Below, piece by piece: positions 1 to 62,991 of a DNA stretch of 64,000 bases. Origin of the DNA: Oceanospirillaceae bacterium (GTDB lineage: Bacteria > Pseudomonadota > Gammaproteobacteria > Pseudomonadales > Balneatricaceae). Position numbers and translations under genes: made by a program. A model generated the notes under the pieces. It searched no databases, was not told the origin of the DNA, and saw nothing but the letters and a program-made list of their open reading frames with translations. Every line of letters begins with the position of its first letter. The first letter of the stretch is position 1. The DNA lies in NCBI GenBank assembly GCA_013215505.1, contig JABSQZ010000017.1, forward strand, positions 1 through 64,000, given 5' to 3'.

Positions 1-77
1 TAGCGAGTAGCGAGTAGCGAGTAGCGAGTAGCGAGTAGCGAGTAGCGAGTAGCGAGTAGCGAGTAGCGAGTAGCGAG
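1..77. repeat. Heptamer tandem array, 11 perfect units
   Basis: Eleven uninterrupted copies of the 7-bp unit TAGCGAG. The array is cut by the window start, so it may be longer. It ends 15 bp downstream of the stop codon of the broken four-helix-bundle gene on the minus strand. The unit is a member of the degenerate AGTNNNN heptamer family found at seven other loci in this window. There are no spacers, so it is not a CRISPR. Confidence 0.97.
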
Positions 78-575: not shown

Positions 576-603
576 ACTGACGACTCGTTACTTGCGACTA
601 ATT
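576..603. repeat. Degenerate heptamer repeat (four units)
   Basis: Four consecutive 7-mers that all start with ACT (ACTGACG, ACTCGTT, ACTTGCG, ACTAATT), in register with the heptamer family seen elsewhere. The last unit touches the stop codon of the small minus-strand ORF at 602-781, repeating the pattern of arrays placed immediately 3' of genes. Confidence 0.7.
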
Positions 604-4330: not shown

Positions 4331-4354
4331 ACTCGCTACTCACTACTCACTACT
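4331..4354. repeat. Heptamer repeat, three units plus ACT
   Basis: ACTCGCT-ACTCACT-ACTCACT-ACT, the complementary-strand form of the AGTNNNN family, lying just beyond the aceF terminator. Only the right arm of the element is present here. Confidence 0.85.
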
Positions 4355-4424: not shown

Positions 4425-6374
4425 CTAGAGTACCAGTTTGCGTATATCACTAAGCACTGCATTCAGATACGTCATAAACCGTCCGCCGTCGCCGCCGTTG
4501 ATGGCGCGGTGATCGTAGGAAAGGCATAGAGGGAGCATCTTGCGAGGCTCAAACTCTTTACCGTTCCAGCGGGGTTTGATGTCCGCTTTTGAGATACCTA
4601 AGATAGCGACTTCTGGGGTGTTCACTATCGGGGTGAAACCGGTGCCGCCGATGCCGCCTAAGCTGGAGATAGTAAAGCAGGCTCCCTGCATCTCGTTTGG
4701 CTTAAGTTTGCGATCTTTGGCTTTGCCCGCCAGTTCAACGGCTTCGTTGGCCAGTTCGTAGATGCTCTTTTTATCGGCATCTTTGATTACGGGTACCATC
4801 AGGCCGTGTGGGGTATCTACGGCAAAACCTATGTTGATGTATTTCTTTAGCACTAAGTGCTGACCATCAGCGTGTAGCGATGCGTTAAAGCGTGGGTGTA
4901 CCGCCAACGCTTTTGCCACTGCTTTAATGATGAAAGGCATTGGCGTTAATCTAACACCTGACTTAGCCGCTTCCTCTTTCATATCCTTGCGGAATGCTTC
5001 CAGATCGGTAATGTCTGCTTCATCAAACTGGGTTACATGTGGCACGTTCAACCAGGCGCGCGACATGTTATCGCGGGTCAGTCTGGCGATCTTGCTGAGT
5101 TTCTGCAGTTCAATTTCACCAAACTGGCTGAAATCGATTTCCGGTACCTGCGGAATACCTGATCCAGAAGCAACAGTGCCTTTACTTGCTGCAGGGCTTG
5201 CCGTTTTCTTAAGCGCCGCTTTAACCCAAGCCTGCATATCTTCTTTTAAGATACGGCCTCGGTTGCCGGTGCCTTTAACTAAAGTCAGATCGACACCAAA
5301 TTCACGGGCTAAAATACGCACCGCCGGGCCAGCATACAAGGTTGACTGGTTTTTCTTCGCCAGATCAACTGCTGCAGGCGCACTGGCCGCCGCTACTGGA
5401 GCTGAAGCAGTACTTGCTGCGGGAGCAGGTACTGGCGCCGCCACAGGAGCTACTGGTGCGGGTGCTGAACCTACTACTTCAAGGGTCAGTATTACATCGC
5501 CCTCGTTGCAGGTAACACCTTCTTGCATAGCGATGGCTGTCACTACACCGGCTTTAGGTGAAGGTACTTCCATCGCCGCTTTGTCGGTTTCAACCGAGAT
5601 CAGGCTGTCGCCTTCAGCGACAGTATCGCCCAAGGCAACCATCACTTCGATAACGTCTACGTCAGTGGCGCCACTGAGATCCGGAACTTTAATCTCTTCT
5701 TTGCCACCGCTAACGGCTGGCGCTGCAACTGGTGCTGGAGCAGGCGTTGCTGCCACAGGGGCTGCAACTACTGCAGCTGCTACTGGTGCTGTCGCTTCGC
5801 CGGCAACTTGCAGGCTTAGAATTACATCGCCAACGTTGCAGACGCTGCCTTCTTGCATGGCAATGGCTGTTACTACACCGGCTTTAGGGGATGGTACTTC
5901 CATCGCCGCTTTGTCGGTTTCAACTGAGATTAAGCTATCGCCTTCAGCGACTGTATCGCCCACTGCGACCATCACTTCGATAACATCAACATCGGCTGCA
6001 CCGCTTAAATCGGGTACTTTAATCTCTTCAATAGCGCCGCTAGCTGCAACAGATGCTGCTGCCACAGGAGCTGCTTGTGGCGCCGCTGCAACAGCTGCTT
6101 GTTCGGGCTCAGCTGTTACTTCTGCCGGGGCTGTCGCTGCGGTGCTCAGCGTTAAGATGGCATCGCCTTCATTACACACGGCGCCTTCTTGCATGATGAT
6201 TTCGACGACAGTACCGCCTTGTGGTGCCGGTACTTCCATCGCCGCTTTGTCGGTTTCCACAGAGATGATGCTATCGCCTTCCGCGATCACATCACCCGCT
6301 TTTACCAATACTTCAATAACGTCGACATCGGCTGCGCCGCTTAAATCTGGAACTGAAATTGTGATTGTAGTCAC
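4425..6374 (-). CDS. aceF: Pyruvate dehydrogenase E2, dihydrolipoamide acetyltransferase
   Basis: The E2 core of the pyruvate dehydrogenase complex: it takes the acetyl group from E1 on swinging lipoyl arms and transfers it to CoA. 649 residues. There are three N-terminal lipoyl domains with the [10 protein letters not shown] lipoylation motif, the target lysines being K43, K155 and K265, joined by Ala/Pro-rich linkers. A peripheral-subunit-binding domain follows (about 345-385, [17 protein letters not shown]). The acetyltransferase domain (about 420-649) has the catalytic [10 protein letters not shown] motif (His622). Lipoyl domains 2 and 3 are almost identical over 110 residues, a recent internal duplication. 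The gene follows aceE by 74 bp in the same transcript and ends at a strong terminator. No lpd gene follows, so E3 is encoded elsewhere. Confidence 0.97.
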
Positions 6375-9611: not shown

Positions 9612-9734
9612 AGTCGTAAGTAGCGAGTCGTAAGTCGTAAGTTAAAAACCAAACAAAAAAACAAGGTCAAAAGACATACCAAATTTTAAATTCAAGTCCA
9701 ATCTTGGCTGGAACTTAACTCGCTACTCGATACT
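9612..9734. repeat. Heptamer-armed inverted element, copy 1
   Basis: The left arm at 9612-9642 is AGTCGTA-AGTAGCG-AGTCGTA-AGTCGTA. The right arm at 9718-9734 is ACTCGCT-ACTCGAT-ACT. The arms are reverse complements, so the unit can fold into a hairpin. The core from AGTTAAAAACCAAAC (9640) to the right arm is 95 bp and aligns without gaps to copy 2, offset by 134 bp. No ORF lies inside. Confidence 0.85.
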
Positions 9735-9752
9735 TCTTTTTATTCGCAACTC

Positions 9753-9923
9753 AGTAGCGAGTAGCGAGTCGTGAGTTAAAAACCAAACAAAAAAACAAGG
9801 CCCGAAGACAAGCCGAACTTTAAAGCTAAGCCCCATTTTGGCTGGAACTTTACTCGCTACTTACGACTCATTACTCGCGACTTTGTCACGTAACTCGCTA
9901 CTCGCGACTCGATACTCACTACT
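9753..9923. repeat. Heptamer-armed inverted element, copy 2
   Basis: The left arm at 9753-9779 is AGTAGCG-AGTAGCG-AGTCGTG. A core follows whose first 27 bp match copy 1 exactly and whose remainder has diverged (GGCTGGAACTT is shared near the end). The long right arm at 9852-9923 has about ten ACTNNNN units with one 6-bp slip. The right arm overlaps the last codons of the GIY-YIG gene on the minus strand. Confidence 0.85.
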
Positions 9924-10256
9924 CCCGCGGATAAGCCCCAGCTTATCCCTACGGGATATCTTTTTTATCGCCGCCTCGCGTTTGCAGGCGCTGGATCGGT
10001 CGGGGTGGGGTTCAGACCAGACTATTTGTACCGGTCGGCGGGTTTTGGTGTAGCGGGCGCCGGCTTTGCCCTGGCCGTTGTGTTCGCGCTCGCGGCGCTG
10101 GCAGTCGGTGGTCACGCCGGCGTACAGGGAGCTGTCGGCGCAGCGGGCCAGGTAGACAAACCATTGCGACTTGGGCTTGGACTTAGATTGTGCCTTAGCC
10201 GCGGGTTTGTCTGCTGGCGAGGATTTTTTAGGGCTGGATACTGTGCTGCTGCTCAA
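9861..10256 (-). CDS. GIY-YIG nuclease-domain protein (YhbQ/UPF0213-like)
   Basis: 131 residues. There is a Ser/Lys/Pro-rich disordered N-terminus (1-31). A compact GIY-YIG domain (about 32-112) starts with WFVYLARCADSSLYAGVTTD. It has the following Arg residues (QRREREHN), the GARYTKTRRP segment and the catalytic-type Glu in CKREAAIKKI. This matches the small single-domain YhbQ-like family, which has a nuclease fold but poorly defined substrates. The ATG overlaps the cysG stop (ATGA), so it is translationally coupled to cysG. The last about 18 residues (RVASSEL-type, 7-residue period) are encoded by the heptamer repeat and are unlikely to belong to the ancestral protein. The ancestral stop was probably lost when the repeat inserted. 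Confidence 0.85.
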   Translation of the reverse strand: MSSSTVSSPKKSSPADKPAAKAQSKSKPKSQWFVYLARCADSSLYAGVTTDCQRREREHNGQGKAGARYTKTRRPVQIVWSEPHPDRSSACKREAAIKKISRRDKLGLIRGSSEYRVASSELRDKVASNES

Positions 10257-11662
10257 ATCGAGGAGATTTCCGGCAGATCATTTTCACCAAACCACTTTAG
10301 CTGATCTTGCAGTAATACCACTTTGCCGACAATGATCAGCGCCGGTGCAGCCAACGGGGTCTGGGCATGCAGTGCTACGAGTGTATCCAATGTGCCGACC
10401 AGCACTTTTTGATCGATAGCAGTACCACGCGAGACGATCGCCGCAGGGGTATCTGCAGCTTGTCCGGCGGCGATTAGCTTAGTGCAGATGTTTTCCAGGT
10501 TGTGCAGTCCCATATAAAAAACGACGGTGTGCTCGCCTCTGGCCAGCTGGCTGTAATCTAACTCGCTACTGCGGTTTTTTTGCTGACCGGTGACAAAAGT
10601 AACGCTCTGCGAATAATCTCTGTGGGTCAGTGGAATACCGGCATAGGTTGAACAGGCACTGGCGGCGGTAATGCCCGGCACTACCTGAAACGGGATGCCA
10701 TGCTCTTTTAAGCTCTGCAGTTCTTCACCACCGCGGCCAAAGATAAAGGGATCGCCACCTTTTAAACGCACTACCCGGCGGCCTTTTTTCGCCTGGTCGA
10801 TCAACATCTGGTTAATGTTCTGCTGCGGCACAGAATGATTATCGCGGTTCTTACCGACAAAAATTAACTCGGCATCGCGCCGACACAGCTCCATCACTTC
10901 TTTGGAAACCAAAGCATCGTACATCACCACATCGGCCTGCTGCATCAGCCGCAGTGCTTTAAAGGTCAGTAATTCCGGATCGCCCGGGCCCGCTCCAACT
11001 AAGTACACTTCCCCGGCGGGTAATTCAGTATCGGCATTTTCCAGCTTGCTGCGCATCATGCTATAGGCCTGGCTCTCGCGCCCGGCCAGCATAGTTTCAG
11101 CCACTTGCCCCTGCAAGATACTCTCCCAGAAATTACGCCGCTGATTGATGGTTTTAAATTTCTTTTTTACCTGAGCCCTGAACTGCCCAGCCAAGATTGC
11201 CAATTTACTGTAACCATTGGGGATCAGTGTCTCTAACTTGGCCCTTAACACCCGTACCAGCACAGGCGCCTGACCACCGGAGGAGATGGCAATCACTATC
11301 GGTGATCGGTCGACTATAGCGGGAAAGACAAAAGTACAAAGTTTAGGATTATCGACCACATTCACCGGAATATTGCGCGCCAGTGCGTCTTGATAAACCT
11401 GGGTATTAAGTTGCTCATCATCGGTGGCTGCTGTCACTAACAACATGCCATCGAGTAGCGCATTTGAATATTCACCAATAATAGCCGTGCCATTATTGTC
11501 ATCTAACAACTGTTGCAACTGCGGATCTATTTCTCGGCTGATAACAGTAACGAGCGCCTTGGTACGTACTAACAATCGAGCTTTACGAAGTGCCACCTGA
11601 CCACCGCCTACCAACAATGCGTTACGGTTTTCAAGCTTAAAGAAGAGCGGTAAATAATCCAT
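10253..11662 (-). CDS. cysG: Siroheme synthase, bifunctional CysG
   Basis: Makes siroheme from uroporphyrinogen III for the sulfite reductase encoded nearby. 469 residues. The N-terminal precorrin-2 dehydrogenase/ferrochelatase module has an NAD-binding loop VGGGQVALRKARLL (18-31) and ISSGGQAPVLVRVLR (126-140). The C-terminal uroporphyrinogen-III C-methyltransferase module has VGAGPGDPELLTFKAL (222-237) and GGDPFIFGRGGEE. The length is close to E. coli CysG (457). A 251-bp heptamer-rich gap separates it from cysH, so it probably has its own promoter. The GIY-YIG gene follows with a 4-bp overlap. Confidence 0.97.
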   Translation of the reverse strand: MDYLPLFFKLENRNALLVGGGQVALRKARLLVRTKALVTVISREIDPQLQQLLDDNNGTAIIGEYSNALLDGMLLVTAATDDEQLNTQVYQDALARNIPVNVVDNPKLCTFVFPAIVDRSPIVIAISSGGQAPVLVRVLRAKLETLIPNGYSKLAILAGQFRAQVKKKFKTINQRRNFWESILQGQVAETMLAGRESQAYSMMRSKLENADTELPAGEVYLVGAGPGDPELLTFKALRLMQQADVVMYDALVSKEVMELCRRDAELIFVGKNRDNHSVPQQNINQMLIDQAKKGRRVVRLKGGDPFIFGRGGEELQSLKEHGIPFQVVPGITAASACSTYAGIPLTHRDYSQSVTFVTGQQKNRSSELDYSQLARGEHTVVFYMGLHNLENICTKLIAAGQAADTPAAIVSRGTAIDQKVLVGTLDTLVALHAQTPLAAPALIIVGKVVLLQDQLKWFGENDLPEISSI

Positions 11663-11749
11663 AGAGTTTCCACAGTCTGCAGTTAAAAAGCTCAGCCATT
11701 ATGGCATTCAAAAAAAAAAAAACGACCTGTTTTTTTATAGAAAGTGGTA

Positions 11750-11908
11750 AGTAGCGAGTCGCAAGTAGCGAGGAACAAGAAAAGAGCAGAAATCAGTAGC
11801 TAGTAGCGTAGTAATGAGTCGTAAGTAGCGAGTCGCGAGTAGCGAGTAAAAGCCAACCCAAACTTGGCGTGACCTTAACTTACGACTCGCTACTCGCGAC
11901 TCACTACT
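11750..11908. repeat. Heptamer-armed inverted element, copy 3
   Basis: Left-arm blocks at 11750-11770 (AGTAGCG-AGTCGCA-AGTAGCG) and 11795-11851 (eight units, AGTAGCT to AGTAAAA). A short core has the inverted repeat GCCAA/TTGGC. The right arm at 11878-11908 is ACTTACG-ACTCGCT-ACTCGCG-ACTCACT-ACT. The core end resembles copies 1 and 2 (TTGGC.TG.ACCT). It fills almost the whole gap between cysG and cysH, and its right edge is about 6 bp from the cysH stop. Confidence 0.85.
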
Positions 11909-11913
11909 CTATT

Positions 11914-12537
11914 TTATATCGTCGTGTGCAGTCCGCATTCGCGGTTATCTAACGCCTTCGTTGGATCAAAGTAGGCGAACTCATTAGTCAGGCCGTGTTC
12001 CAACAGGTACTGGTCCAGTTGCTCTTCGCTGCTGTGGTAGAGCGGTGCGACTTTGATGATGCCGTCTTTGCTGGCGGAGATAACTTCCAGGGTGTTGCGA
12101 AACTCGGTCTGTTCTTTGCGGATGGCGTTTAGCCAATAATCCGGCTTGATCTCAGTCAGGGCGCGCCTGAAAGGTTCCAACTTCACTTGCTCGGTAAACT
12201 CGTCGTGCAGTGGCTCGCCGACTTCCGGTATGCCGCCCATTTGCACATTGCGAAAGGCAGTGGTTTGCACTGGGGTGTATACCTGCATGTTCAGATCCAA
12301 CTGCTCGATTAGCGCTTGTGCGTAGCGGTAAGTCGCCGAGGTGTTGTAGCCCGAGTCGATCCACAGAATCTTAAGGTCCGGCTTGATTATCACCGCCATG
12401 TGCAGTATCGCCACTTCGTAGGGGCGAAAGTTGGTGGTTAGAATAGGGTTTTCAGCATTCTCTAACGCCCACTGAATAATCTGTTCTGGAGTCTGGCCCT
12501 GTACCTGGCTGTTGAGTAGTTCGGTATTAATTTGCAT
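11914..12537 (-). CDS. cysH: Phosphoadenylylsulfate (PAPS) reductase
   Basis: Reduces PAPS to sulfite with thioredoxin. About 207 residues from the ATG at 12537, which has GGAA 7 bp upstream. An in-frame TTG directly after the DUF934 stop would add four residues and is less likely. The adenylylsulfate-binding fold and the C-terminal ECGLH catalytic cysteine are present. The two Cys pairs that bind a 4Fe-4S cluster in APS reductases are absent, so the substrate should be PAPS, which needs an APS kinase. The protein is shorter than E. coli CysH (244). Third gene of a sulfite reductase-DUF934-cysH run with essentially no gaps. Confidence 0.92.
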   Translation of the reverse strand: MQINTELLNSQVQGQTPEQIIQWALENAENPILTTNFRPYEVAILHMAVIIKPDLKILWIDSGYNTSATYRYAQALIEQLDLNMQVYTPVQTTAFRNVQMGGIPEVGEPLHDEFTEQVKLEPFRRALTEIKPDYWLNAIRKEQTEFRNTLEVISASKDGIIKVAPLYHSSEEQLDQYLLEHGLTNEFAYFDPTKALDNRECGLHTTI

Positions 12538-12549
12538 AGTTAGTTCCAA

Positions 12550-19410: not shown

Positions 19411-20007
19411 ATGAGTACTATTATTATCGCCGTTACTGTACTGCTGGGCCTGGCCATTATTTTTGGTCTAATTCTCGGTTTCTCTTCGATCAAATTTCAC
19501 GTCGCCGGCAATCCTATTGTCGAGCAGATAGATGAATTGCTGCCGCAAACCCAATGCGGTCAATGTGGCCACCCCGGCTGTCGGCCCTACGCTGAGAGCA
19601 TTGCCAACGGCGAGGCGATTAACAAATGCCCGCCAGGTGGACAGACAACCATTGAGGCACTGGCCAACTTACTGGATCTTGAAATACTGGAACTGGACGG
19701 TGACCACGATGAAAATCCGGTTAAAACCGTTGCCTATATTCGCGAAGATGAATGCATAGGTTGCACTAAGTGTATTACTGCCTGCCCGGTTGACGCCATC
19801 TTAGGCGCGGCAAAACAGATGCATACAGTAATCATTGATGAATGCACCGGCTGTGATTTGTGTGTCGCCCCCTGCCCGGTTGACTGTATCGACATGCTGC
19901 CGCTGGCGGTCAATATCAACAGCTGGAAATGGCAGGCGCCTGAGACTACTTTTACTAAACAACTGATCGCCACCGATAAACGCCCTGTTGTGGAGCTAGA
20001 TTCTTAA
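19411..20007 (+). CDS. rnfB: Rnf complex iron-sulfur subunit B
   Basis: Electron-transfer subunit. 198 residues. An N-terminal membrane anchor (about 3-26) is followed by the 4Fe-4S domain CGQCGHPGC...NKCPPGG and then two ferredoxin-type 4Fe-4S motifs, [12 protein letters not shown] and [12 protein letters not shown]. The stop codon overlaps the ATG of a short chimeric ORF (TAATG), because the rnfB 3' end and the rnfC 5' end are tandemly duplicated here. Confidence 0.97.
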
Positions 20008-20288
20008 TGGCTAAAGTCTTTGCATTTCACGGCGGCATCCATCCACCTGAAAACAAATATCAGTCGGCGCAGCGGCCTATCGTGAGTGCGCCGCTGACTA
20101 AGGTGCCGCAAGAACCACTGCGACAACTGATAGCCACCGATAAACGATTTGCCGTGGAGCTAGAATTTTAATGGCTAAAGTTTTTGCATTTCACGGCGGC
20201 ATCCATCCACCTGAAAACAAATATCAGTCGGCGCAGCGGCCCATCGTTAGTGCTCCAGTGCCGGAAATACTACAAGTGCCACTGCGAC
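19959..20288 (+). repeat. Tandem duplication across the rnfB/rnfC junction (period 164 bp)
   Basis: Copy A (about 19959-20124) and copy B (about 20123-20288) each hold the last about 15 codons of rnfB, the TAATG stop/start and the first about 35 codons of rnfC. Every aligned landmark is offset by exactly 164 bp: CAACTGAT at 19960/20124, the ATG at 20007/20171, CCACTGCGAC at 20115/20279. The first 28 or so rnfC codons differ only silently. The stretch after SAP has diverged in amino acids. The junction lies at a short ACA-type microhomology. Confidence 0.95.
20007..20171 (+). CDS. Chimeric 54-residue ORF (RnfC N-terminus fused to RnfB C-terminus)
   Basis: An open frame created by the duplication. 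Residues 1-31 repeat the RnfC start ([18 protein letters not shown]), residues 32-40 are diverged (LTKVPQEPL), and residues 41-54 repeat the RnfB end ([15 protein letters not shown]). Its ATG overlaps the rnfB stop, and its TAA overlaps the true rnfC ATG, so translation can be passed from rnfB through this frame to rnfC. Whether the peptide has a function is unknown. Its preserved frame and stop/start overlaps mean it does not break coupling. Confidence 0.75.
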   Translation: MAKVFAFHGGIHPPENKYQSAQRPIVSAPLTKVPQEPLRQLIATDKRFAVELEF

Positions 20289-23158
20289 AGCACATAGGTG
20301 TCGCCGCTAAAGCTTGTGTCAGTGTCGGTGACAAAGTATTAAAAGGGCAGCGGATTGCCGATGCCTCTGGCAAGCTCAGTGTTCCGGTGCATGCCCCCTC
20401 ATCCGGTGTCGTTATTGCCATCGCTGATCAGCCGGTACCCCATCCATCGGGGATGTCGGGACTCTGTATCAGTATTGAGACTGACGGACTGGAGCAGTGG
20501 ATAGAGCACAGCGGTTTAGCTGACTATAAAGCTCTGTCGCAAAACCAGTTAATTGACTATATTCGCGATCGCGGCATCGCCGGCATGGGTGGCGCGGGAT
20601 TTCCCACCGCAGTTAAACTGCACTTGGGTGATGATCACATCATCAATACCTTAATCATCAACGCCGCCGAGTGTGAGCCCTACATTACCGCCGATGATTT
20701 ACTGATGCGCGAACGCGCCGAGCAGATAATCGCCGGTATCGAGATACTGCAGCACTTAATTAAGCCCAGTCATGTGTTGATCGGCATTGAAGACAACAAA
20801 CCGAAAGCGATCCGCGCCCTGGAAATCGCCCTGCAAGATTGTAAATACAATATTGATGTGGTGACAGTGCCGACCAAATACCCCTCCGGTGGTGAGAAGC
20901 AACTGATTCAATTGCTGACCAATGTCGAAGTCCCCCATGGCGGCATTCCCGCTGACGTCGGCATCGTCTGTCAGAACATCGGTACTGTGTACGCGATTCA
21001 CCGCGCGGTGGCACATGGCGAGTCACTGATCAGTCGCATAGTCACGGTCACTGGCGCCGGGGTCAGCAAGGCGCAAAATTATGAAACGCTGATAGGTACC
21101 CCTTTCGATACTCTGCTCCAGGCAGCCGGACACAACCCACAGCGCACCACCCGATTGGTATTGGGCGGACCGATGATGGGCTACAGTATCGACAACTCGC
21201 AGATACCTGTGGTTAAAACCAGCAACTGCATTATCGCCGCTACCGCTGGCGAGATGCCCGAACAACCTGACGCCCAGGCCTGCATTCGCTGCGGTCTGTG
21301 TGAGCAAGTCTGTCCGGCGCAGCTACTGCCGCAACAGCTGCACTGGTTCGCCAAGAGCCAGGAATACGACAAAGCCGAGCAACACAACTTATTCGACTGC
21401 ATAGAATGTGGTGCCTGCTCTTTTGTCTGCCCCAGTAATATACCGCTAGTGCAGTACTACCGGCATGCAAAGAGCTCTATCCGCGAACAACAGCAAGACA
21501 AACGCAAGGCAGATTTAGCCCGCGAGCGCTTCGAGGCTAAGCAGCATCGGGAACAGCGCGCTGTAGAAGAGAAAGCGGCAAAGCGTAAAGCCCGCGCCGA
21601 ACAGGCAGCCAAAGCGCAGGCCGAGAAAAAAGCGCTGGCGGAAAAATCACTGCAACAGCCGCAACAACAACTGGATAAACTAGCAGCAGCAGTGCCTGCC
21701 GCCCAGGCGAAAGTCACGGCAGCCAAGGCGCAGCTGGCACAAGCCAACAGCACCGAGGGCAACAGTGCCGATATCAATTCAGCAGATTTGCAGTTTAAAA
21801 CCGCCACCGCTAACCTGCTAAAAGCACAACAAGCCGTTAGCGACTTTACACCTGCTGCCAAGCCAGCGATCGATAGCAAGAAACTAAAAGTCGCCGCCGC
21901 TATAGCCAACACCCGTTTAAACAAAGCCCTGACGGCGTTAAAAGCGGCGCAGGAAAAGAGCCAACCGGGCATTGAATCTCTACAGAATACTATTGCCAAA
22001 CTGCAGCTGGAAGCAGCCAGTGCCGATAGCGCCTACCAGAGCGCTGCCGGGGAACCTGCTGCCAGCGCCGCCAAGCCTGATGTCGAGACTAAAAAACTTA
22101 AGACCGCAGTGGCAGTGGCGCGCACTAAAGTTAAACGCGCCGAGGCAAAACTTAGCGCGGCGCAGCACTCTGGAGCTGACAATTGCAGCGAACTGCAGCA
22201 GCAACTGGACCTGCTCAAGCAGACCTTGAACACTGCTGAGCTAGCCTATCAACAGTCAGATAGCAGCACTCAGGGATCAGCAGCTGTCACCGCCATCAAC
22301 AGCGCTCCGGATCTTAAAGTATTGAAAACAGCGGCCGCGGTGGCGCGCACTAAGCTTAAGCAAGCCCAGGCACAATTAGCTAAACTGAGTCCGCTAGAAT
22401 CTGCGGATACTGAACAAGTGCAGCAACTGCAACAGCAAATCAACTTGCTAAGCCAAAAGGTAACTGACACAGAAGCCAGCTACCTCCAGGCCAAGCCCAC
22501 TGAATCGGCTGAAACAGATCTGCAGCAGCTGCAAGATAACTATGAAAAAATCAATAAGATGGCCGATAAGGCCGGTGCTGCACTGCTTAAGGCTGAGGCC
22601 GATCAGAGTCCGGCAGTCGCGAAGATGAGGGTCGGCATTGATAAACTAAAACTTAAGCTGGATGCCGCCAAACAGGCACTGACGCAGGGCAACAGCACTG
22701 ACCCTGATAAACCTGCAGCTGCGATGATCCAGCAACAGCCAGCGCAGCCAGGCATCGACAAAAAAGCACTGAAACAAAAAGTGGCCATAGCCCGCACTAA
22801 ACTGGGAAAAGCACAGCAACAATTGGCCGCCTCTGGCAGTGAAAATAACCAGTTATCAGCCACTGTCGACCAGCTGAGCAAAGCGCATCGGGATGCTCTG
22901 GCAGAACTAGAGGCAGTCGATGCTGCGGCCCAAGCTAAGGCAAAAGAAATGGGCATTGATTTAAAACAGTTGCGCAGCGATCTGGCACTGGCAAAAGTGA
23001 CCCTGATTAAAGCACAAAAGGCTCTGGCCGAGTCCGGGCCAGATGACCCGGCAGATAAAGAGCTCGAACAACGGCGCAGCGCCGTCAGCGCTGCCAGCGA
23101 GCAGCTGGACAGCCTCAACGCAACACTGGCATCGATTGATACGATAATGGGCTCCTAA
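20171..23158 (+). CDS. rnfC: Rnf complex subunit C with very long repeat-rich C-terminus
   Basis: The NADH/flavin-binding and iron-sulfur subunit of Rnf. 995 residues, against about 740 for E. coli RsxC. The N-terminal part has the nucleotide-binding loop GIAGMGGAGFPTAVK (about 137-151). Two 4Fe-4S motifs follow, CIRCGLCEQVCP (about 371) and CIECGACSFVCP (about 410). Residues about 430-990 are an Ala/Gln/Lys-rich coiled coil. It contains at least five copies of a unit like LKTAVAVARTKVKRAEAKL, starting near residues 575, 643, 718, 863 and 937. Such tails vary between species and are thought to be spacer or interaction regions. The ATG overlaps the preceding stop. Confidence 0.96.
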   Translation: MAKVFAFHGGIHPPENKYQSAQRPIVSAPVPEILQVPLRQHIGVAAKACVSVGDKVLKGQRIADASGKLSVPVHAPSSGVVIAIADQPVPHPSGMSGLCISIETDGLEQWIEHSGLADYKALSQNQLIDYIRDRGIAGMGGAGFPTAVKLHLGDDHIINTLIINAAECEPYITADDLLMRERAEQIIAGIEILQHLIKPSHVLIGIEDNKPKAIRALEIALQDCKYNIDVVTVPTKYPSGGEKQLIQLLTNVEVPHGGIPADVGIVCQNIGTVYAIHRAVAHGESLISRIVTVTGAGVSKAQNYETLIGTPFDTLLQAAGHNPQRTTRLVLGGPMMGYSIDNSQIPVVKTSNCIIAATAGEMPEQPDAQACIRCGLCEQVCPAQLLPQQLHWFAKSQEYDKAEQHNLFDCIECGACSFVCPSNIPLVQYYRHAKSSIREQQQDKRKADLARERFEAKQHREQRAVEEKAAKRKARAEQAAKAQAEKKALAEKSLQQPQQQLDKLAAAVPAAQAKVTAAKAQLAQANSTEGNSADINSADLQFKTATANLLKAQQAVSDFTPAAKPAIDSKKLKVAAAIANTRLNKALTALKAAQEKSQPGIESLQNTIAKLQLEAASADSAYQSAAGEPAASAAKPDVETKKLKTAVAVARTKVKRAEAKLSAAQHSGADNCSELQQQLDLLKQTLNTAELAYQQSDSSTQGSAAVTAINSAPDLKVLKTAAAVARTKLKQAQAQLAKLSPLESADTEQVQQLQQQINLLSQKVTDTEASYLQAKPTESAETDLQQLQDNYEKINKMADKAGAALLKAEADQSPAVAKMRVGIDKLKLKLDAAKQALTQGNSTDPDKPAAAMIQQQPAQPGIDKKALKQKVAIARTKLGKAQQQLAASGSENNQLSATVDQLSKAHRDALAELEAVDAAAQAKAKEMGIDLKQLRSDLALAKVTLIKAQKALAESGPDDPADKELEQRRSAVSAASEQLDSLNATLASIDTIMGS

Positions 23159-36769: not shown

Positions 36770-38170
36770 ATGAATTATTTATACCTGAGCGCGCTCGCTA
36801 CTATTTTAGCCACCAGTGTACAGGCGCAACAAATCACTTTAAGCGAGAGTGATCAGACCCAATTATCGGTGACCTTTTATTCGCAAAACCTCGGCCTGAT
36901 TCAAGAGAGCCGAACGCTGGGACCGCTAAGCAATACAGATACGGTTGTGGTCACAGACATCAGTCAACAGATGGACCCCCGCAGTTTACAAATACAAAAT
37001 GCCGGGGTCATTACCGCCCAGAGCTTCAATAAATCAGTGATCAGCTATCAAAGCTTAATGAACAGCTATATTGGCAAACAGATAATTTTAGTCAAAGCTA
37101 GCGGGGCCGCGGGCGACGATATCAGACAATCCGTCACACTGCTCAATGTCAGTGACAAGACTGTGATAGTAGAATTAAACAATGCGATTGAGTCAATCCC
37201 GCTACACAGTGACCAGTGGCGTTTTATATTCCCGAAAAAGCCCGATAATTTACTGCTAAAGCCCAGTCTGACGTTCCAGTCAGAGGGAAAAACCGGCAGC
37301 AGCAACATCCAACTCAGTTATCTCAGCAGCGGCATTGAATGGCAAATGGATTATGTACTGGCACTCAATAAAAATAGCGACCAGCTACAATTGAAGGGCC
37401 TGGCGTCACTGTTTAACAACACCGGCATTACTTTTCGCAACGCCAATATTAAACTCCTAGCTGGCAGTATTTCTCAACCAGCAAAGAACTTCTCCCAGGA
37501 AGCTGACAGCAGTGTCAGGATGATGGTACAGACTGACAAACTCTCTGTAGCCCCACAGACCACCGGTGATCTACAACTGTATAAATTGCCCAATAAAACC
37601 ACCTTATACTCCGGCCAGCAAACCCAAGTGCCACTGTTACAGGCTGACGCGGTAAAAGTAATAGCCAGCTATCGCTATCAATTTCATGTCACCCCCTATC
37701 TGGACAACAACCTGTTTAAAAGTAACCCCAGCTCCTATTTAACTTTCACTAATAACAGCGCCAGCGGCCTGGGAAAACCCCTACCCGCAGGACAAGCCAG
37801 AGTCTTTAGCCCTGATCAAAGTGGTGGATTACAATTTGTCGGTGCCAGCTTCCTGCCACAGAGCGCCGTCAATGAAAAGATAGAACTGCAGACCGGCAAA
37901 GCTTTTGACATGAGCATCAGCCAAAAGCAGACCAGCCATAAAAAAACCTTTAACGGCGCCGTGATTGGTATTCAATTAAATATTAACAACAGCGCTGCAG
38001 ACAATAAAACCTTGGATCTCTCCAGCAGTTTCAGCCACGCCTGGGAGATAATCAGCAGCACATTCCCAACCATTGCTAAAAGGGGTGCAGCTGCCAACTG
38101 GAGCATAAAATTACCCGCCAACAGCGCCACTATATTCAACTTAGTAGTTCGGTTAAAAACTAAGAATTAA
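36770..38170 (+). CDS. Secreted DUF4139 family protein
   Basis: 466 residues. It has a signal peptide (cleavage near ATSVQA-QQ, residue 20). The N-terminal section VTFYSQNLGLIQESRTL with VVTDISQQMDPRSLQI, and later YLSSGIEWQMDYVLAL with NIKLLAGS, match the DUF4139 family (mucoidy-inhibitor-like beta-rich proteins). Probably periplasmic or surface-located. It follows the pseudokinase-FGE gene closely and could be its partner. Just past its stop the heptamer repeat field begins. Confidence 0.78.
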   Translation: MNYLYLSALATILATSVQAQQITLSESDQTQLSVTFYSQNLGLIQESRTLGPLSNTDTVVVTDISQQMDPRSLQIQNAGVITAQSFNKSVISYQSLMNSYIGKQIILVKASGAAGDDIRQSVTLLNVSDKTVIVELNNAIESIPLHSDQWRFIFPKKPDNLLLKPSLTFQSEGKTGSSNIQLSYLSSGIEWQMDYVLALNKNSDQLQLKGLASLFNNTGITFRNANIKLLAGSISQPAKNFSQEADSSVRMMVQTDKLSVAPQTTGDLQLYKLPNKTTLYSGQQTQVPLLQADAVKVIASYRYQFHVTPYLDNNLFKSNPSSYLTFTNNSASGLGKPLPAGQARVFSPDQSGGLQFVGASFLPQSAVNEKIELQTGKAFDMSISQKQTSHKKTFNGAVIGIQLNINNSAADNKTLDLSSSFSHAWEIISSTFPTIAKRGAAANWSIKLPANSATIFNLVVRLKTKN

Positions 38171-38177
38171 AAATTCT

Positions 38178-38333
38178 AGTTGGAAGTTGGAAATTAAAGT
38201 CGGAAGTTGGAAGTTGGAAGTTGGAAGTTGGAAGTTGGAAGTCGGAAGTCGAAATTAACTAACTGCTTTTGCGGTTAAATACTTACGACTTACGACTTGC
38301 GACTTACTACTCGAGAGTCGCGAGTCGCGAGTC
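38178..38333. repeat. Heptamer-armed inverted repeat field
   Basis: The left arm at 38178-38253 has about ten units (AGTTGGA mostly, with AGTCGGA and AGTCGAA). A core has AACTGCTTTTGCGGTT. The right arm at 38281-38315 is ACTTACG x2, ACTTGCG, ACTTACT, ACTCGAG, then AGTCGCG x2 at 38316-38329. The last part forms the palindrome CGCGACTCTCGAGAGTCGCG on reading both strands. The right arm supplies the final codons and stop of yibQ. The AGTTGGA variant dominates only here. Confidence 0.85.
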
Positions 38334-39143
38334 AACCGCCTTGCGGTTGAGAGTAGCAATAAGCGAAGACACTGAAACTAACTGTACTTGTTGCGACGAA
38401 AAATTGCTCAGCCGCTTTTGTAAAAACTTGATAGTTAGCGCATGCGGGTGAGCAATCACTACCGCGTGCCCCTGGGATTTAGCTATTCGCAGAGCCCGCT
38501 CAAACTGTTCATTCAGGGCTGCAGTGGTCAACTTGTGATCTAAAAACACATCGCGTTTCAGGCAGTCGATACCCGCTTGTTTTGCCTGCTGCCAGGCGAC
38601 ACTTTGCGCGCTGGTTTTACTGTCAAGAAAAAACAACCCACGTTCCTTCACCACTTCCATTGTCCAGCGCATTTGCAACTGCATCGCCGTCAGCTTACTT
38701 CCCATGTGATTGTTGACACCGATCAGGTTCGGGATAGCATCTATATTTTTGTGCAGTGTCGCTTTAAAACTCTGCTCTGTCATCTTTGAGGTCATACCAC
38801 CTGGCCCTAAGGGCAAGTTGTAAATCGCCTCCATCGGCGCGTGCAGCAAGACGTCTCTGTTCAACGCCCGAGCTGTAGCTGCCAAAGTTTTGCTATAAGT
38901 TGCGTGCGGCAAGAAGGCAAAGCTCAGCTCTGCAGGGAGATTTAGCGCAGCTTGGTTGGAGATCAGTGAGTGACCCATATCATCAATTAAGATGGCTAAC
39001 TTGGCTGTTTCAGCTGGGATTATCAACGCCTTATCAGCGCTGTCTGGGCTTCCAGTGGCACTGTTGAGCCCTGCGGGCTCCAGCTCAGCGGCAACAGCTA
39101 AATCTGCGGCCAGTGCAGCAATAACACTAAGGGCAACACACAA
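38307..39143 (-). CDS. yibQ: Divergent polysaccharide deacetylase family protein (YibQ)
   Basis: 278 residues from a TTG. LAILIDDMGHS near residue 50, LLHAPMEAIYN, GVNNHMGSKLT and VVIAHPHALT are the conserved motifs of the divergent polysaccharide deacetylase (DUF610) family, which follows envC-ctpA in many gammaproteobacteria. The start is uncertain. The frame stays open 15 codons further upstream through a basic stretch (KIIKILKSRF) that would complete the signal peptide, but there is no ATG or GTG there. The last about eight residues (DSRLATLE) come from the heptamer repeat, so the original stop was lost. Periplasmic; the substrate is unknown. Confidence 0.85.
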   Translation of the reverse strand: MCVALSVIAALAADLAVAAELEPAGLNSATGSPDSADKALIIPAETAKLAILIDDMGHSLISNQAALNLPAELSFAFLPHATYSKTLAATARALNRDVLLHAPMEAIYNLPLGPGGMTSKMTEQSFKATLHKNIDAIPNLIGVNNHMGSKLTAMQLQMRWTMEVVKERGLFFLDSKTSAQSVAWQQAKQAGIDCLKRDVFLDHKLTTAALNEQFERALRIAKSQGHAVVIAHPHALTIKFLQKRLSNFSSQQVQLVSVSSLIATLNRKAVDSRLATLE

Positions 39144-56883: not shown

Positions 56884-56904
56884 ACTTACTACTTACTACT
56901 TACT
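56884..56904. repeat. Heptamer repeat, three ACTTACT units
   Basis: Three perfect ACTTACT units 30 bp after the hisA-like stop, in the short gap before the EamA gene. A single-arm member of the heptamer family. Confidence 0.75.
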
Positions 56905-62020: not shown

Positions 62021-62058
62021 ACTTACGACTCGCTACTTACGACTTACGACTTACGACT
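62021..62058. repeat. Heptamer repeat, five units (convergent gap)
   Basis: ACTTACG-ACTCGCT-ACTTACG x3-ACT, between the convergent lrp and rsmJ genes, 9 bp past the rsmJ stop. The preceding TAAAAGCCCAATTTAGCTGAC resembles the core end of the element at 11750-11908, so this is the right half of the same element. Confidence 0.8.
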
Positions 62059-62066
62059 TTATATTG

Positions 62067-62879
62067 TCAATCGATCTTCTTTAACGCATAGATATCGTAA
62101 CGGCTGGACTTACCTTCCAGTGCATAACTGGGTTTTAGCTGGCTAAGTCCCGGTACATTGATTATAGGCGCCTTGCGCGGGCGCTTGACCACGACCCTGG
62201 CCTGGGCAGTTTCCAGCGCAGCCGCCAGCAATTCACCGGCATCTAAATCCTCACCGACAACATCGCGAAACAGCAACATCTCTTTTTTAACCGCGGCGCT
62301 TTTTGCGGAATGTGGAAACATAGGATCGACATACACCACTTGCGGGGCCTCTACACACTGGCGCAGCCATTCAATACTGTCACTGCAATGCAAGTGCATA
62401 CGAGCGATGATGTCCATAATTTCAAAATTTAATTCGGCGCGGCTGAAACCGTCAGCCAACAAACTATGTATGATTGGAGAGCGCTCAATCAGCTGCACCT
62501 CACAACCTAAAGTTGCCAGAACAAAACTGTCTTTGCCCAACCCCGCTGTGACATCTGCAATACTGGGGCGAAGACTGCCTTTAATACCCACTGCTTTGGC
62601 AATCATCTGGCCAGAGCCACCGCCAAATATGCGTCTATGTGCTACCGATCCACTGACGAAATCAACTGTCACAGGGCCTGGAGCTTTTTTCCCGGTCTGC
62701 TGTAATTGCAGCCCCCTGTCGGTCAGATATAACAATACCGGGATTTTGCAGTGTTTCAGGTCGCTGATCACTTTGGCGTAGGGCAAGCCTAAACTGCTCG
62801 CTAATTGCTGAGCGTTACTTTGCAAACCACCCTGAGCGGCAGCCACGGTGAGTGTATTCTCATTCATATCTGTCATCAT
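62067..62879 (-). CDS. rsmJ: 16S rRNA (guanine(1516)-N2)-methyltransferase
   Basis: About 270 residues from the ATG near 62879 (AGGT 8 bp upstream); several close ATGs exist. [26 protein letters not shown] is the SAM-binding motif, and [19 protein letters not shown] is the catalytic DPPY-like motif. Family RsmJ (YhiQ). A heptamer repeat starts just past the stop. Confidence 0.93.
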
Positions 62880-62991
62880 CAACGACCTGCAGTATATAAA
62901 CGTAAACTGCTGGCTAACTCCTGTATCCAAAAATGCAATCTATGTTGGGTGTCGGCCCTGCTGGGGCTATTTTCAACGTTAATATTAATCA

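Follow-up and report, generated by a model that had tools for sequence, protein, structure and literature searches.

Runs of degenerate seven-base units, AGTNNNN on one strand and ACTNNNN on the other, recur along the first 64,000 nucleotides of contig JABSQZ010000017.1 of an Oceanospirillaceae bacterium (GenBank assembly GCA_013215505.1; here the host, G000). This whole stretch of 64,000 nucleotides is called the window. The question raised by the locus is whether these runs are elements that fold and move, or features of the genes beside them. A first-pass annotation of the window had read the inverted runs between 9612 and 11908 as hairpin-armed, possibly mobile elements. The heptamer arrays mostly start at or near a stop codon and run 5'-(AGTNGNR)n-3' on the mRNA strand. 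They are very probably heptamer arrays of gene 3' ends, not jumping elements.

The repeats are not a peculiarity of the window. All eight loci originally listed with a seven-base period are present, one of them (56884-56904) with only three units. AGT and ACT at period 7 ranked first and second among 64 trinucleotides at 11 periods in the window, where runs of four units occurred 32 times (19 AGT, 13 ACT) and never in any of 100 first-order Markov simulations. The genome-wide search for AGT every seven bases, which the annotation had proposed, bore out a dispersed family: the five-unit pattern matched 1,049 times (443 + 606), compared to 63 times (22 + 41) when read backwards. Such abundance is unusual: the six-unit pattern had 794 matches in the host, and among 149 other genomes of the phylum 8 have any match and none has more than 20.

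Positional figures were taken from 1.248 Mb of the 5.73-Mb host genome (22%; 52 contigs), made up of the window, positions 1-400000 of contig C1 and 40 further stretches. The window and the C1 stretch were picked without regard to arrays, while 28 of the 40 were centred on known array matches; array densities were therefore taken only from the genome-wide pattern counts and the unselected 400 kb of C1. Genes were called with a hexamer script, which assigned 79% of the sample to coding sequence. In this sample, perfect repeats (from about three copies upward) were far more frequent at period 7 (146) than at periods 5, 6, 8 and 9 (4, 9, 2 and 2). AGT or ACT was found in 128 of the 146 heptamer repeats; across 2,000 rounds of unit-letter shuffling the number averaged 47 and never exceeded 66. 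Clusters with at least four units numbered 108 in the sample, 88 of them in a single orientation, and 18 in the unselected 400 kb.

Across 965 units the consensus was AGTNGNR. The earlier statement that AGT alone is fixed proved too strict: position 5 is G in 89% of units and position 7 a purine in 90%, while position 4 is G in 4%. The AGT strand is G-rich and C-poor (G 0.37, C 0.08), and so is the mRNA that carries it. A small vocabulary is common to unlinked loci, which agrees with the proposal of one family with recurring units: AGTCGTA occurs at 52 loci, AGTTGGA at 42, AGTAGCG at 34, AGTCGGA at 28 and AGTAGGA at 18, among 63 unit types listed. Local expansion of unit variants, also suggested earlier, was likewise supported. 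Identity between neighbouring units climbs toward the array middle from both ends alike, and no age gradient runs along the arrays.

Array placement was strongly polar. We called an array placed when it lay between two called genes, as did 129 of 154; 15 lay at stretch edges, and the middle of the array fell inside a gene call in 10, so that the arrays are mostly non-coding. For 98 of the 129 placed arrays, the gene boundary lying 5' of the AGT strand was a 3' end, where random intergenic placement gives 44%. The distance from stop codon to first AGT had a median of 6 bp and was at most 40 bp in 76 of these 98. For the other 31 arrays the boundary on that side was a gene 5' end, at a median of 170 bp and within 40 bp in 2. 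On the far side of placed arrays 3' ends are common too (87) but distant, at a median of 86 bp.

Further counts gave the same polarity. Among 696 gene ends, runs of at least four consecutive units were sense at 55 and antisense at 3. A second, independent test used the stops of any open frame of at least 120 codons lying from -45 to +60 bp of the array, with false frames included on both strands; it agreed for the host, with 84 sense versus 32 antisense among 154 arrays (hereafter written 84 v 32 of 154). When the strand was defined by the richer G content of any perfect heptamer, the result was 56 v 7 of 142. Array genes leaned weakly toward co-direction with replication as judged by GC skew (50 of 77, compared to 539 of 964 others).

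In the window the arrays are arranged as follows.

6-71, plus strand: AGTAGCG array with 10 AGT units, terminal on contig C11; no called gene on its 5' side, unplaced.
576-599, minus strand: degenerate array of 4 units with AGT on the minus strand; not between two called genes, unplaced.
4331-4354, minus strand: sense array of 4 units, 70 bp past the stop of 4425-6374 (minus; 2-oxoacid dehydrogenase acyltransferase).
9612-9642, plus strand: first copy of a tandem-duplicated element, AGT arm; contrary to the rule, it follows no gene 3' end.
9643-9717, no strand: 75-bp spacer (the "core"), with a duplicate copy at about 9774-9851 and otherwise not in the genome.
9718-9734, minus strand: ACT arm of 3 units.
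9753-9776, plus strand: AGT arm of the second copy, 4 units.
9852-9923, minus strand: two sense arrays of 5 units, overlapping the 3' end of the GIY-YIG gene 9861-10256 (minus).
11743-11847, plus strand: AGT arrays of 4 and 6 units, upstream of cysG (10253-11662, minus) and 80 bp from its 5' end; contrary to the rule.
11878-11908, minus strand: sense array of 5 units, 5 bp past the stop of 11914-12549 (minus; PAPS reductase domain).
38179-38249, plus strand: sense array of AGTTGGA type behind the stop of 36770-38170 (plus); convergent partner of the array at 38281-38311.
38281-38311, minus strand: sense array of 5 units, overlapping the stop of 38307-39143 (minus; polysaccharide deacetylase).
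56884-56904, minus strand: three-unit run between two plus-strand genes and antisense to both; an exception.
62021-62058, minus strand: sense array of 6 units, 8 bp behind the stop of 62067-62882 (minus; SAM methyltransferase), in a convergent gap with an Lrp-type gene.

The positional rule thus holds at 4331, 9852-9923, 11878, 38179, 38281 and 62021. Its exceptions are the AGT arms at 9612-9776 and 11743-11847, together with the run of three units at 56884. At the GIY-YIG and polysaccharide deacetylase genes (9852-9923 and 38281-38311) the array itself supplies the stop codon, and several other sampled genes likewise end inside arrays.

The inverted arrangement that had suggested a hairpin element followed mostly from gene orientation. 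Sense arrays were found at 32 of 138 convergent ends but 15 of 193 co-directional ends in gaps of 100-300 bp, and at 15 of 106 versus 1 of 151 in gaps of 30-100 bp: at comparable gap lengths up to 300 bp, the frequency at convergent ends is roughly threefold or higher. Among 163 convergent gaps, sense arrays were present at both ends of 14, at a single end of 22 and at neither end of 127. Of the 19 placed clusters with mixed orientation, 14 lay in convergent gaps and 5 in co-directional ones; the two best window elements, at 9612-9923 and 11743-11908, belong to the latter five. A pair of sense arrays that meet in a convergent gap necessarily forms an inverted repeat, so inverted arms are mostly explained by two convergent genes that each have their own sense array.

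Dispersed mobile hairpin elements, of the miniature inverted-repeat transposable element (MITE) or repetitive extragenic palindromic (REP) type, were the earlier suggestion, and inverted arms do fold well compared to shuffled sequence (z from -2.8 to -7.4 in six folds). However, when arms were swapped among 21 inverted pairs, 203 of 300 permutations were at least as stable as the arms with their own partners. Arms that pair no better than swapped arms suggest that the hairpin is a by-product of shared vocabulary and orientation, and selection for hairpins was ruled out by this result. The core fared no better. It had been given as about 95 bp, and the stretch between the arms measures 75 bp; the cores at 9612-9734 and 9753-9882 are indeed alike (82-83% identical), but as a local tandem duplication of period 134. 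A genome search with the spacer returned its tandem copy only, the six other matches being 14-27 bp long with E values of 0.06 or worse, and a shared or mobile core was thereby ruled out for the window. The first-pass annotation had set its element against slippage of unrelated sequences with no core shared elsewhere: the core is indeed shared nowhere else, while the units themselves are shared, so the loci are not unrelated slippage either. Its view that the repeats are neither REP nor CRISPR (clustered regularly interspaced short palindromic repeats) held for the features compared, as there is no conserved palindrome, the arms being unmatched and the spacer unique, and the units are contiguous.

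Comparison with close relatives also bore on mobility. In G006, the closest relative compared, aligned stretches were mostly 75-90% identical to the host; 24 host sites (three-unit clusters included) had an orthologous flank, and 17 were inspected. Thirteen keep an array in AGT register, one of them in only one of two arms. Of the other four sites one has a drifted heptamer array, one has two units only, one falls on two contigs, of which a single one has an array, and one is uninformative since the stretch stops short. Empty orthologous sites had been named as a sign of mobility, and the outcome was mixed: 14 of the 17 sites keep a heptamer array, and 1 of the 17 lacks an array, with diverged flanks. 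At most kept sites the unit make-up differs between host and G006. Among more distant congeners (G001, G002, G004 and G005), where absence was judged by eye, an array was seen in 0 of 4 genomes at 11750, 0 of 3 at 9612 and 0 of 3 at 4331, and 114 kb of G001-G005 held no perfect heptamer array. The five-unit pattern nevertheless occurs 27 to 284 times in all six other genomes of the host genus that were searched. Arrays of this type were present in 21 of the 57 relatives searched, and not in the majority of genera.

Some copying with flanks would suit a mobile element: a 12-bp spacer is common to four loci, a 33-41-bp flank to three, and three near-identical array segments lie on contig C29. 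The single orientation of 88 of the 108 clusters, the lack of any pairing advantage over swapped arms, a window spacer that is unique save for its tandem copy and the sites largely kept between G000 and G006 all stand against it, and so does the strict gene-strand polarity, which is unexpected of random insertion. We consider mobile hairpin elements highly improbable.

The same polarity extends to other lineages, some of them with other units. Open-frame counts were 22 v 8 of 33 in G006, 9 v 2 of 17 in G001-G005, and 17 v 4 of 22 in genus g3 of the same family. Eighty GTDB loci of named organisms, those listed of at least 116 stretches, gave 52 v 19 of 125; they were found with the AGTNGNR pattern, so the search biases their unit composition but not the strand they take with respect to genes. 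Records titled Bacteroidales, Verrucomicrobiales, Nostoc, Moorena, Vibrio, Planctomycetia, Roseiflexaceae and Clostridiales are among the sense cases. The triplet repeated at period 7 in G008, a genome of genus g3, is TGA and not AGT, with 209 six-unit windows compared to 3 mirrored, and TGA-phased arrays at loci of G008 and G023 gave 14 v 4 of 29; some of the g3 arrays are also AGT arrays and enter both tests. With the strand set by the G-richer side of any perfect heptamer, the counts were 11 v 3 of 25 in G006, 22 v 2 of 58 in g3, 48 v 8 of 181 for the GTDB loci and, in small numbers, 9 v 2 of 66 for cyanobacteria. Such polar anchoring in arrays of different units, without G-tracts and without stops, argues against G-quadruplex and stop-cassette explanations for the host genome, and turns attention to gene ends on their mRNA or R-loop side.

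The quadruplex idea comes from the closest known counterparts, the G-rich heptamers of two Xanthomonas strains and one Nostoc strain (GGGNATC and GGGGA(C/T)T), which were described on the coding strand at most 50 bp from stops, with no function assigned in the parts of the account drawn on here (Rehm et al. 2015, PMC4692102). Like the host arrays, these are tandem seven-base units, mostly intergenic, which lie within 50 bp behind stops, are rare between divergent genes, and keep the same gene neighbours while repeat sequence and length vary (PMC4692102). The match in strand and place, together with the GG tracts of AGTTGGA, AGTCGGA and AGTAGGA, would favour quadruplexes in the host. In contrast to the described units, however, the host consensus is AGTNGNR, and AGTCGTA and AGTAGCG, two of its four most widespread units, have neither a GG nor a G-tract. 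Four-unit runs are not preferred either (5 runs of four compared to 14 of five). The Xanthomonas and Nostoc arrays also occur up to 50 bp upstream of open reading frames on the non-coding strand, while 2 of the 31 host arrays with a 5' end behind them lie within 40 bp of it; the host further differs from the published description in preferring convergent over aligned genes and in mixing more than ten unit variants within arrays. As an explanation of the host arrays, quadruplex formation appears very unlikely.

Stop cassettes are another reading of the same position: a seven-base period would place the stops contained in units in all three frames and so catch read-through. A stop in sense was present in 561 of the 965 units, the antisense of AGTNGNR contains none, and many reading frames end inside an array. 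Yet the share of units with a stop (58%) is that expected of any AGTNNNN (57%). Arrays devoid of stops contradict the idea, since these show polarity as well (13 v 2 of 28 placed), and we regard it as scarcely credible.

What remains to be explained is how tandem heptamers arise and why they keep to one strand of gene ends. We propose that arrays may be made and renewed by replication slippage in seven-base steps, with exchange between arrays keeping the unit vocabulary common. The slippage step is proposed because of the known heptamer bias of bacteria: heptanucleotides are in excess among long simple sequence repeats, and slippage was put forward as the source (Mrazek 2007, as cited in PMC4679880 and PMC4692102). 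That survey shares the preference for period 7 with the host; no positional, triplet or strand rule appears in the accounts that cite it. Nucleation would occur where a G-rich, C-poor nascent RNA leaves the translating ribosome, right after the stop codon; the freed RNA would form an RNA-DNA hybrid (R-loop) and expose the displaced strand to slippage. Gene ends would tolerate arrays once formed, and the arrays may play a secondary part in shaping transcript 3' ends. We give even chances to the whole account of slippage-born arrays of the 3' untranslated region, without insisting on the R-loop. The R-loop step itself, which draws on general background knowledge, is tentative and clearly less probable than that. 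The cause of the strand polarity is inferred.

Several observations weigh against this account. The 31 of 129 placed arrays with a gene 5' end behind them include the AGT arms at 9612 and 11743, and in three further genomes of the family none of five arrays was flanked by a qualifying stop (0 v 0 of 5). Slippage and composition alone leave the fixed AG(T) of 128 of the 146 perfect units unexplained. Sense runs at stops numbered 17 of two units, 8 of three, 5 of four and 14 of five, then extended up to 22 units: a flat distribution with few runs of three or four, not the decay expected of growth from small seeds. Array-free gene ends showed no clear excess of two-unit seeds (27 sense versus 20 antisense of 994). 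Array genes did not differ from others in coding score (Mann-Whitney p 0.26), giving no sign of a link to expression. Some copying with flanks is evident from the spacer of 12 bp that recurs at four loci and the flank of 33-41 bp at three. The convergent preference is absent from gaps above 300 bp (3 of 82 convergent versus 9 of 129 co-directional ends), and the excess of convergent gaps with arrays on both sides is not accounted for by the slippage mechanism.

Convergent gaps are where Rho would be most useful, and Rho loading sites facing antisense transcription form a further explanation: RNA of the reverse strand, (ACTYNCN)n, would stop transcripts that run backwards into gene 3' ends, a need greatest between convergent genes. 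The antisense strand is suitably C-rich and G-poor (C 0.37, G 0.08) and its orientation fits, as does the preference for convergent gaps of at most 300 bp. A full-length Rho is present in the host (707 bits). Intrinsic-terminator-like structures are no commoner at convergent genes with arrays, and if anything rarer (4 of 49 compared to 37 of 224 others, not significant); at co-directional genes the counts were 3 of 25 and 38 of 388. However, six cyanobacterial genomes, several of them metagenome-assembled, carry a sense-anchored array and have no Rho above the curated cut-off, in contrast to all four other genomes searched. Rho therefore cannot be the general cause, and composition alone demands neither a fixed AGT nor a strict seven-base period. 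We consider Rho loading unlikely. The host also has a Rho paralogue of 314 aa (L355, 2311-3255; contig C7, 64310-65254) that scored 356.6 bits over model positions 116-411, below the cut-off; it corresponds to the ATPase part, and Pfam assigned to 295 aa of it only ATP-synt_ab and general P-loop domains.

A fixed AGT would be expected if a protein read it. Contiguous 7-bp heptads are bound by ribbon-helix-helix proteins at operators of the omega-repressor type, and the host period would fit such an operator by analogy. A ribbon-helix-helix or RNA-binding protein of this lineage could read AGT every seven bases, with selection keeping the sites. AGT fixed while other positions vary, sites kept between species as their units turn over, a different triplet in the sister genus (as a co-evolving reader would allow), and a flat length distribution with most arrays of at least five units all suit this idea. 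It has no candidate protein, although no search aimed at one was made, and similar polarity with different units in many phyla speaks against a single lineage-specific reader. Arrays in 21 of 57 relatives, and not in most genera, also count against it. We judge a dedicated reader to be rather improbable.

A broader possibility, which we hold to be doubtful, is that a general bacterial process tied to translation termination writes and renews seven-base arrays on the mRNA strand right behind stops, which would then act as G-rich 3'-end tags limiting transcription into and out of neighbours. Lineages would possess their own dialects, equally conjectural: AGTNGNR in the host, TGA-phased units in the sister genus and GGGNATC in Xanthomonas.

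Other repeats resemble the arrays in part. REP sequences and bacterial interspersed mosaic elements (BIMEs) are numerous, intergenic, inverted and common at gene 3' ends, and REPs are conserved palindromes; the host arms, in contrast, are unmatched tandem heptamers with no conserved core. Unlike a MITE, they share no core with terminal inverted repeats at many sites, and unlike a CRISPR array, their units are contiguous with no unique spacers between them. Cyanobacterial short tandemly repeated repetitive heptamers and the heptamers of tRNA-Leu introns are degenerate, are attributed to slippage and may lie in a stem-loop, with other units and locations than in the host. TAACTGA heptamers have been described upstream of starts in marine Beggiatoaceae, and in cyanobacteria and Bacteroidetes, with insertions and deletions in 7-nt steps between close strains (MacGregor 2015, PMC4679880, in the parts drawn on here). 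They too are intergenic and scattered over phyla, and their reverse complement also contains AGT; unlike the host arrays, they are short runs of one fixed unit, mostly just upstream of Beggiatoaceae starts (PMC4679880). AGTTATC, the rotated complement, was absent from the 60 commonest of the 63 host unit types. A heptamer satellite is also reported in Chloroflexus, in the part of that source drawn on here (PMC6749651). The excess of heptamers in bacteria has thus been on record since 2007 with little beyond the proposal of polymerase slippage, and their strand and place at stop codons were noted in 2015 for two genera, with no explanation. Literature titles searched included none on AGT-type arrays or on a rule across phyla, most subscription papers lying outside that search.

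The arrays have practical consequences for sequence analysis. Convergent array pairs invite a mistaken reading as hairpin elements, and genomes of this kind, when assembled from short reads, can be interrupted at gene ends. Contig C11 begins with the window, which puts the array at position 1 at a contig end; contig C7 (position 1) and several G006 contigs also start or end in arrays, so that draft assemblies break there.

Minor sequence features accompany some arrays. The three near-identical segments on contig C29 (L103, positions 319, 2791 and 14957) have flanks of about 120 bp that are 84-100% identical, a segmental duplication within one 40-kb contig. The 33-41-bp dispersed repeat (…CTTGAGCGCATAAAA…) lies beside arrays near 273700 and 391590 of C1 and near 100-130 of L119, with a weaker match in L112. 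A GGTCAAGCCAAG / TCACGCCAAG motif recurs a few bases downstream of some arrays (L119 12602, C1 264032, L091 344), and [AC]GCCAA occurred within 60 bp downstream of 11 of 154 arrays, compared to upstream of 5. TAAAAGA, AAAGACA and AGGTCAA were weakly enriched at array boundaries. In G008, TGATTCG and TGATTGG arrays are dense over a stretch of about 90 kb (contig C1, 201234-289915), into which most places among the matches listed fall. An Rfam scan of the window gave one tRNA and no other family over its gathering score. At 19959-20289 the window also carries a 164-bp tandem duplication, whose two copies are 85% alike.

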